Assembly (NCBI RefSeq): GCF_002210345.1
Contig: NZ_MWQI01000001.1
Location: 496,001-560,000 of the forward strand
Origin: Fibrobacter sp. UWB4
GTDB taxonomy: Bacteria > Fibrobacterota > Fibrobacteria > Fibrobacterales > Fibrobacteraceae
Length of the DNA stretch: 64,000 bases
Reading direction: 5' to 3'
Below are positions 9,501 through 57,415 of the stretch, in pieces; position 1 is the stretch's first letter, and every line of letters begins with the position of its first letter. The position numbers and the translations under genes are program-made. A model generated the notes under the pieces. It searched no databases and was not told where the DNA came from. It saw only the letters and a list, made by a program, of their open reading frames with translations.

Positions 9501-9809
9501 CTACATCAAACCGGGGATTTTCATGCCGCCGGTGATGTCCGAAATGCTTGCCTGCTGGGCGTCGTCTTTCTTCTTGACGGCGGCATTCACGGCGGCCATG
9601 ATGAGGTCTTCGAGAGCTTCGACGTCGTCCTTGTCTACTGCATCCGGATTGATTTTCACCATCGTGAGTACGCCTTTTCCGTTCATGGCGACCTTCACCA
9701 TTCCGCCGCCGGCTTCGGCGTCAAAGCTCTGTGCCTTGAGGTCGTTTTGTGCCTTAAGCATCTTGCTCTGCATTTTCTGAAGGTCCTTAAGCATCTTGCT
9801 CATGTCCAT
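9501..9809 (-). CDS. YbaB/EbfC family nucleoid-associated protein
   Basis: A 102-aa DNA-binding protein of the YbaB/EbfC family, which forms tweezers-like dimers and is commonly encoded directly after dnaX. The N-terminal helix MSKMLKDLQKMQSKMLKAQNDL and the central KVAMNGKGVLTMVKINP strands are typical. The start at 9809 is chosen because GAGG stands 8 bp upstream; the frame is open 17 codons further. The gap to dnaX (about 200 bp) is filled with palindromic repeats, and a terminator follows. Confidence 0.92.
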   Translation of the reverse strand: MDMSKMLKDLQKMQSKMLKAQNDLKAQSFDAEAGGGMVKVAMNGKGVLTMVKINPDAVDKDDVEALEDLIMAAVNAAVKKKDDAQQASISDITGGMKIPGLM

Positions 9810-9888
9810 GAATATATCCTCGCTATTAAAGGTTTTGTTTATAATTTTGCATCTCGTCATGGGGGCTATAGCCCGATCTAGTTAAGTT

Positions 9889-10008: not shown

Positions 10009-11736
10009 CTAGGAATCCATCTCCTCGTCTTCGCATTGTGAAACGATGGCCGCTTTCTTGAGCTTCTTGGTGAAGACGAGTTCCGTCGCAAACATCTGCT
10101 GGAGCTTTGCAAGTCCCGGTTCTTTTTCCAGATCGAGTTCGTACGGACTCATTTTGGCGGCGCGCTGCTCGGCTAGTTCACTTTCGGTGAAGGCGCGTGT
10201 GCGGATGGAAAGCGCAATTTTTGTCTGCAGGCGGTCTTCCAAAATTCTCGTGACGCGATCGACGTACTCGGAATGCTCCATCATCTGGCGGTAGCCCCAG
10301 TTTTCGGCATTTTCGGTTGTGCCCGCGTAGGTGAGCGCAATCGGGAACGGGGTCTGTTCTGGGTCGCCGGTTTCAAGAGTGGTACCGGCAATGGCGGCGG
10401 AGAACACGTAGTCGCCGTCGTTAGCGATGTTGGAGAGAATGGATGGCCATGCGGCTGCTATCTCGTAACGCGAAAATCCCTGTACGCCACCTTGATCGTA
10501 GCCTGCAAACGGGTCATCGTAAGACGCCTGGACTTCTTCCTGGGCGTCTATCATGGCGCTGATTTCAGTTACTTTTTTTTTTACCGCGTCGTTTTCGGCG
10601 CTTTTAGGATCGTTAATCGCTGCAAGAGCTTTTCGCAAATCGACCAGTCGGTCGAGCCAAGCCATTCGGGCGAATGTCGTTTCGACGAGGAGGCGCGGGT
10701 TCGTGCTGTAGCGGAGCGTACCCTGCAAGTCGATAAGCATCTTGCTTATGCGGAGGATGTCGCCGTTCGTGAGACTTTGTGCGCAGCTCTTGTACTTGGT
10801 ATAGAGTTCTTCGGTGATGTTGAGTGCATCCGGCGTGAAGGCGTCGAGGCGGGCGTAGAGCAAGTTGCGGAGGAACTTGCCAAAGCCGTCGAGCAGCGGG
10901 ATGAACTCGATACCGATTTTCACGGCGTCATCCACCATGCGGAAACAGCCCTTGATATCGTGATTCTCGATGGACTGGATGAGCGAGAAGAACAGTTCTA
11001 CAGGCGGGATGCCGAGGACGGAGCGGACGGATTCCGCGGTCATCTCGTTCCCGGTAAAGGCGTAGGCCTGGTCAAAGTAGGTGAGGCCGTCACGCATGGA
11101 ACCGTCGGCCTTTTCGGCAAAGATGTCGAGGGCTTCGTCGGTAGCCTTGATGCCTTCCTGTTCGCAAATGTAGCGGAGGCGGCTGCGGATCTGGTCCACG
11201 GTCAGGCGCTTGAAGTCAAAGCGCTGCACACGGCTCAAGATCGTCTGCGGGACCTTGTTGACTTCGGTCGTTGCAAAGATGAAAATCACGTGGGATGGCG
11301 GTTCTTCGAGCGTCTTGAGGAGCGCGTTGAAGGCGCCTGTCGAGAGCATGTGGACTTCGTCGATGATGAAAATCTTGTACTTGCCGATGACGGGCGGGTA
11401 CTGCACACGTTCAATCACATCGCGGATGTTATCGACGCTGGTGTTGGAGGCCGCATCTATTTCATAGACGTCCATCGGATTTCCGCCGGCGATATCCTTG
11501 CAGCTGTCGCACTCGCCACACGGATGCAGCGGGTCGGAACCCTTGCAGTTGAGTGTGCGGGCGAGAATGCGGGCGCTAGTAGTCTTGCCCACACCACGGG
11601 TGCCGGTAAAAAGGAATGCATGATGGAGACGACCGCCCTGAATGGCGTTCTCAAGAGTCTTTGCGATATGTTCCTGACCGACCATATCGCTGAATGATTG
11701 CGGGCGCCACTTACGCGCCATTGCGATGTATGCCAT
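10009..11736 (-). CDS. dnaX: DNA polymerase III subunits tau and gamma
   Basis: Clamp-loader ATPase of the replisome. The 575-aa tau form starts MAYIAMARKWRPQSFSDMVG. Near residues 45-55 is Walker A GTRGVGKTTSA, then a four-cysteine zinc module (CKGSDPLHPCGECDSC), Walker B DEVHMLS and the sensor LSRVQRFDFKR. Domain III ends before residue 385; after it comes a variable tail. A run of ten A residues at 10573-10582 (codons 385-388, V-K-K-K) is followed within four codons by a stop in both other frames, giving a 388- or 390-aa gamma-like product if polymerase or ribosome slips. The first conserved ATG is 11736; no clear Shine-Dalgarno is seen. The frame is open upstream to 11829. Confidence 0.95.
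   Translation of the reverse strand: MAYIAMARKWRPQSFSDMVGQEHIAKTLENAIQGGRLHHAFLFTGTRGVGKTTSARILARTLNCKGSDPLHPCGECDSCKDIAGGNPMDVYEIDAASNTSVDNIRDVIERVQYPPVIGKYKIFIIDEVHMLSTGAFNALLKTLEEPPSHVIFIFATTEVNKVPQTILSRVQRFDFKRLTVDQIRSRLRYICEQEGIKATDEALDIFAEKADGSMRDGLTYFDQAYAFTGNEMTAESVRSVLGIPPVELFFSLIQSIENHDIKGCFRMVDDAVKIGIEFIPLLDGFGKFLRNLLYARLDAFTPDALNITEELYTKYKSCAQSLTNGDILRISKMLIDLQGTLRYSTNPRLLVETTFARMAWLDRLVDLRKALAAINDPKSAENDAVKKKVTEISAMIDAQEEVQASYDDPFAGYDQGGVQGFSRYEIAAAWPSILSNIANDGDYVFSAAIAGTTLETGDPEQTPFPIALTYAGTTENAENWGYRQMMEHSEYVDRVTRILEDRLQTKIALSIRTRAFTESELAEQRAAKMSPYELDLEKEPGLAKLQQMFATELVFTKKLKKAAIVSQCEDEEMDS
10570..10585 (-). promoter_or_regulatory. slippery A10 run in dnaX (frameshift or transcript slippage site)
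   Basis: On the coding strand GT-A10-GTAACTGA. With one A added (or -1 shift) the frame reads K-K-K-S-N-stop (TGA). With one A lost (or +1 shift) it reads K-K-K-stop (TAA). This layout matches the slippage site by which some bacteria make gamma from dnaX. Confidence 0.65.
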
Positions 11737-57380: not shown

Positions 57381-57415
57381 AAAAAAAAAACACCCTTATG
57401 GGTGGTTTCTTTTTA
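57381..57415 (-). terminator. terminator after tRNA-Pro
   Basis: ACCACCCATAAGGGTG stem with a ten-base T run on the minus strand, one base past the tRNA. Confidence 0.85.

Follow-up and report, generated by a model that had tools for sequence, protein, structure and literature searches.

An A10 run in dnaX of Fibrobacter, very probably a transcriptional slippage site for the gamma and tau subunits

In E. coli, the gamma subunit is made from dnaX by -1 programmed ribosomal frameshifting. The dnaX gene of Fibrobacter sp. UWB4 contains an uninterrupted run of ten A residues, which raises the question whether this single gene also gives two proteins and whether the polymerase or the ribosome would slip. 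The gene lies in a stretch of 64,000 nucleotides, called the window. Its product matched the NCBIfam gamma/tau models (TIGR02397, E 2.6e-130, over its cut-off). The gene, its parts and its neighbor are:

10009 to 11736, minus strand: dnaX, tau subunit, 575 aa plus stop, zero frame (ORF and translation; NCBIfam)
10624 to 11736, minus strand: clamp-loader domains I-III (AAA+, lid, and domain III ending at about residue 371), shared by gamma and tau (Pfam PF13177, PF22608, PF12169)
10012 to 10569, minus strand: tau-only C-terminal part, 186 aa, missing from gamma, conserved in Fibrobacteraceae
9501 to 9860, minus strand: YbaB/EbfC-like gene 3' of dnaX, given as context (ORF), a name which we take from the usual dnaX-ybaB gene order

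In the AlphaFold2 model (mean pLDDT 73) the tau-only part is probably folded over its own residues 37-165. Searches of the Fibrobacteraceae tau tail against Pfam families and PDB sequences returned no match, and a fold search of the predicted model against the PDB gave no significant match, KH-like matches being weak only.

The T10 on the plus strand at 10573-10582 is A10 in the sense strand of dnaX, where the zero frame reads GCG GTA AAA AAA AAA GTA ACT GAA. The run begins 14 residues after the end of Pfam domain III, which is at residue 371. The elements of the site are:

10573 to 10582, minus strand: A10 slippery run, from the third base of codon 385 to the end of codon 388 (placed by a unique match in the window)
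10569 to 10571, minus strand: TAA stop after loss of one A, predicted gamma of 388 aa; depends on the GTA codon
10565 to 10567, minus strand: TGA stop after gain of one A, predicted gamma of 390 aa; depends on T at the third base of codon 390

When one A was inserted in silico the reading became K-K-K-S-N-stop (390 aa), and when one was deleted it became K-K-K-stop (388 aa). A previous sequence-only reading of this DNA had described an A10 run in dnaX with stops in both other frames, and on re-reading of the sequence this description was exact; the range it gave, 10570-10585, takes in a few bases flanking the run. Its claim that slipped products of 388-390 aa would end just after domain III was borne out by the computed frames together with the Pfam matches.

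Runs of A or T of at least 10 occur at 11 distinct places in the 3.58 Mb genome, and only the dnaX run is inside a gene body. The others are intergenic or in leaders. Two of them were in doubt; on inspection, one proved to follow an adenylate-kinase-like gene and the other to precede the likely ATG of a chain-length-regulator-like gene. Within the window, a further A10 run at 57381-57390 is intergenic, beside tRNA-Pro (CGG), and is probably unrelated to the dnaX site. Synonymous-codon shuffles of the genus dnaX genes gave a run of at least ten A anywhere in the gene in 19 of 3000 cases. Runs of A9 are not rare in the window, with 6 seen against 4.9 expected. Consequently, the weight rests on position and conservation and not on the run alone.

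Within the genus Fibrobacter, A10 was present in 75 of 76 dnaX genes, and the remaining gene has A11. Codons were counted in the 75 one-ORF A10 genes, whose protein identity to the window gene falls as low as about 70%. All 225 Lys codons at the site are AAA, while elsewhere in the same genes 546 AAA stand against 1609 AAG; other fully conserved Lys columns in the genus are mostly AAG. The residue at codon 385 varies (L/V/T/I), yet all 75 genes have A at the third base of this codon. The Val codon after the run is invariably GTA (75/75), which elsewhere in these genes makes up 473 of 2212 Val codons, and this fixation supplies the TAA of the minus-one-nucleotide frame. Where codon 390 encodes Thr it is always ACT (53/53; elsewhere 234 of 2668 Thr codons). 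The third base of codon 390 is T in 72 of the 75 genes, which supplies the TGA of the plus-one-nucleotide frame. The exclusive use of AAA, the wobble A and the fixation of GTA and ACT indicate that in the genus selection acts on the nucleotides of the run and of both stops. Selection of a Lys-rich linker for the protein alone, with the A run arising by chance, would explain why K-K-K is found at the site in all genus genes. However, it would leave unexplained the strict AAA, the fixed wobble A beside a varying residue and the fixed GTA and ACT, as well as the three codon phases and two-ORF relatives described below, and we regard it as very improbable. It is harder still to credit a phase-variable contingency tract, in which replication slippage would switch dnaX within the population: some relatives do differ by one in run length, but A10 is fixed in 75 of the 76 genus genomes and, to our knowledge, dnaX is essential in known bacteria.

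Across the phylum, 145 of 149 Fibrobacterota dnaX genes carry a run of A8-A12 at the homologous place, codons 375-428 (A10 in 115 genes, A9 in 15, A11 in 10, A12 in 4 and A8 in 1), and four lack it. The check for a lost or shorter run in close relatives and other Fibrobacterota therefore did not refute the sequence-only reading. Elsewhere in the Fibrobacterota dnaX genes, a run of at least nine A occurred once. Beyond the genus, every codon phase occurs at the start of the run (29, 21 and 19 genes for the three phases). The later of the two off-frame stops follows the run at a median of 4 codons, compared with 26.5 from random positions, in 27 genera counted as one-ORF (these include g2, which is really two-ORF and the outlier). 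Two genes of family f5 (L196 and L197, genomes G165 and G164) have no A run and encode a short-tailed DnaX of only 440-444 aa; judged from sequence, these may be a natural control or, alternatively, a lineage making the gamma-like protein alone. Two genes of family f8 (L223 and L217, genomes G106 and G107) have a linker with long tandem repeats and no A run, their reading frame being broken within the repeats or by the assembly.

In 23 Fibrobacterota genes dnaX is split into two ORFs: the in-frame product is gamma-like, the tau tail is in another frame and a slip is needed to reach it. The shift needed is +1 or -1 nt, depending on the lineage. Genera g4 and g2, with 11 genomes and A9, share a conserved tail that is read in the minus-one-nucleotide frame. 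In G036 (A11) the tail in the minus-one-nucleotide frame is 80% identical to an in-frame tau tail of the genus. A11 in G036, as in G139, is a length change in a single genome and could be a homopolymer assembly error. Other two-ORF genes have the tau tail in the plus-one-nucleotide frame; in L185, cut by a contig end, the true need is +1. On a tree of the N-terminal part of DnaX, the minus-one state needs 5 changes and the plus-one state 6. A direction that varies among orthologues has been taken as a mark of transcriptional realignment (PMC3711429). Hence, the variable direction and codon phase among the relatives favor transcriptional slippage over -1 ribosomal frameshifting of the E. coli type.

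Programmed -1 ribosomal frameshifting as in E. coli dnaX would be a slip on the A run to the TGA stop, giving a gamma of 390 aa. The gene and the pair of products would be the same as in E. coli, A_AAA_AAA is present within the run and the -1 frame stops after S-N. The codon phase is different, however: the zero frame reads AAA AAA AAA GTA, and the E. coli-type A_AAA_AAG is not found. The tRNA-Lys genes, three CUU and one UUU, are also unlike those of E. coli. An Rfam scan of the site gave no match. About 23 nt separate the run from the start of the main downstream stem of the window gene (z -1.3 to -2.2), but across 34 genera there was no excess of downstream hairpins at +30 to +90, where they were no stronger than elsewhere in the gene. 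A downstream stem-loop as -1 stimulator was rejected, not being enriched. A Shine-Dalgarno-like stimulator 5' of the run was sought in the upstream sequence AACGACGCGGT, where the duplex energy was -2.3 and about half of the windows of the gene were as good. Many relatives have the motif GAGG, but the F. succinogenes-like clade, to which the window belongs, does not, nor do g5, g7 and g8, and this candidate was rejected as well. Conserved Shine-Dalgarno and downstream stem-loop are thus absent here, unlike in E. coli dnaX. Moreover, relatives that need a -1 nt change for tau would be unable to use a -1 ribosomal shift, and the stop of the minus-one-nucleotide frame (GTA to TAA) is also kept, which a purely -1 ribosomal system would not need. 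Frameshifting of this kind therefore appears quite unlikely.

Transcriptional slippage might be assisted by a structure on the 5' side of the run. In the window gene this is:

10586 to 10601, minus strand: weak hairpin, GCGcCG-AAAA-CGaCGC, separated from the run by 3 nt on its 5' side; corresponds to strong hairpins in relatives

The fold in this species is weak (-4.6 kcal/mol, z 0.2). In the listed upstream sequences of relatives, inverted repeats that differ in sequence adjoin the 5' side of the run. Much of the genus has CGCCTC-CGAC-GAGGCG-TT-A10, g5 has CGCTTC-CAAT-GAAGCG, g6 ACCCTG-..-CAGGGT and g8 TCTGCA-..-TGCAGA; in f4g14 the arrangement is GACCTC-TCC-GAGGTC-A10. Hairpins were scored as the best stem with a loop of 3-8 nt that ends 0-6 nt before the tested point. 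At the run the median rank was 0.13 in 34 genera (KS p about 1e-7), and shuffles of the same 30 nt in their own composition gave p 2e-10, with a median of 0.035 in 11 Fibrobacteraceae genera; these p-values are post hoc, since the idea of a hairpin came from the data. Fourteen control offsets from -90 to +90 gave median ranks of 0.39-0.72, that is, no enrichment, and they are a better guide than the p-values, the genera being not fully independent. A covariation test in one fixed register, covering Fibrobacter together with g5 and g7, showed pairing in 158 of 224 cells where 156.8 would be expected. The difference is not significant, because members use shifted hairpin registers. Outside Fibrobacterota no such 5' hairpin was seen: 15 A runs near domain III from other phyla had a median rank of 0.68. 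Many of the hairpins contain GAGG in their 3' arm, for which a Shine-Dalgarno sequence is the alternative reading.

A hairpin that adjoins an A run of 9-10 nt fits the exit channel of the polymerase behind an RNA:DNA hybrid of 9-10 bp, in the way described for the Roseiflexus IS630 element (PMC5009743). From the enrichment we consider it somewhat better than an even chance that the 5' hairpin helps slippage in many lineages. The hairpin also bears on ribosomes sliding in both directions on the poly-A, the mRNA having exactly ten A residues and the frame being lost on iterated AAA. Ribosomes are described as sliding on such codons (PMC4363877), and sliding would likewise exploit the stops of either frame and work with runs of either length. 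It would, however, leave the adjoining 5' hairpin unexplained, which would sit inside or at the exit of the slipping ribosome; this explanation seems just as improbable as the E. coli type, if not slightly more so. For RNA polymerase a precedent exists in the Roseiflexus IS630 element, for which stem-loop-mediated transcriptional slippage was reported (Penno et al. 2015, as described in PMC5009743). As in that element, a hairpin appears to lie 5'-adjacent to the slip motif, in a terminator-like geometry, in dnaX of many Fibrobacterota. The IS630 motif is T5C5 and serves a one-base deletion in a transposase gene, whereas in dnaX, a replication gene, the motif is an A run on which slips in either direction would be possible; the stimulation in Fibrobacterota dnaX is putative, and in this species the hairpin is weak.

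Taken together, it is highly likely that dnaX yields both gamma and tau through programmed transcriptional slippage at the A10 run, in the mode of Thermus, and very probably Fibrobacterota make two clamp-loader proteins from one dnaX by a slip of RNA polymerase. When the polymerase copies the run, the RNA:DNA hybrid would be nearly all A:T and could realign, so that the A count of the dnaX mRNAs would fall below ten or rise above it. Messages with 10 or 10+3n A residues would be translated into tau, 575 aa including the C-terminal domain. Those with other counts would stop within 0-2 codons and give gamma, 388-390 aa with the clamp-loader domains alone and a predicted mass of 43 kDa. As stops are present in both frames, a slip in either direction would be productive. 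In many relatives a nascent-RNA hairpin adjoining the run probably raises slippage, in the geometry of an intrinsic terminator. The occurrence of slippage, its origin in the polymerase rather than the ribosome, the stimulation by the hairpin and the gamma:tau ratio are what we infer from this pattern. The proposal of the sequence-only reading that gamma arises by slippage, with a Thermus-like layout, thus gains support from the two-ORF relatives with swapped direction and from the variable phase, and also because neither a downstream stem-loop nor a conserved Shine-Dalgarno sequence was found. The 5' hairpin of the wider phylum was not among the features which that reading described. We further favor, by a small measure, a cassette of hairpin and A run common to dnaX throughout Fibrobacterota, in which the nascent-RNA hairpin would drive slippage. 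Since slippage would supply all frames, run length could have drifted freely and the templated product could have switched repeatedly between tau and gamma, both proteins being kept.

Transcriptional slippage in dnaX is known from Thermus thermophilus (Larsen et al. 2000, as described in PMC1088944 and PMC5009743). The Thermus type is also marked by mRNAs that vary in their number of A residues and by gamma and tau in a ratio of about 1:1. In both genes the sense strand carries the A run, the zero frame encodes tau, stops lie near in both other frames and the predicted short product ends after the run, which comprises at least nine residues (A9 in Thermus, A10 here). The run lies seven-eighths along dnaX in Thermus, but about two-thirds along here, just after domain III. 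Unlike in Thermus, a 5' hairpin adjoins the run in many Fibrobacterota, where slippage is predicted from sequence. Two-ORF dnaX genes with poly-A were found by GeneTack (PMC3711429), and relatives of the window gene resemble them in having gamma in frame and tau by a slip at the A run. The GeneTack cluster has one direction (a -1 frameshift at the DNA level), whereas Fibrobacterota have both directions and the one-ORF form in one phylum. In the window gene, a single ORF, tau does not depend on a change of frame, as it does in the 23 relatives. The literature searched did not pair Fibrobacter with dnaX slippage beyond a genome count.

Runs in dnaX were also observed outside Fibrobacterota. Five Desulfuromonadales-like and Geobacter-like genes (L038, L046, L047, L048, L069) have A9-A10 runs at codons 530-542 or thereabouts, with both off-frame stops soon after and near the gene end, a place that differs from that in Fibrobacterota. 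Two genes of Bacteroidales and Flavobacteriales (L060, L099) have dnaX in two ORFs, with A10 at codons 361-364 and a shift of +1 nt required for the longer product. In Crocinitomix (L094, L095) the dnaX zero frame ends at 371 aa and 214-215 aa continue in the -1 frame; these genes have no A run and may represent another recoding signal or a split gene.

Comparative prediction of slippage has been called difficult where the product is truncated, as no new coding sequence is then involved (PMC1088944). Here, the direction-swapped relatives, the fixation of wobble bases and the paired stops supply comparative evidence for a whole phylum. If the proposed mechanism is true, selection for gamma would be strong and would have lasted long in bacteria distant from both E. 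coli and Thermus, which is relevant to the debate on what gamma does. In that case, terminator-like control of the polymerase would enter a replication gene through the hairpin beside the run.
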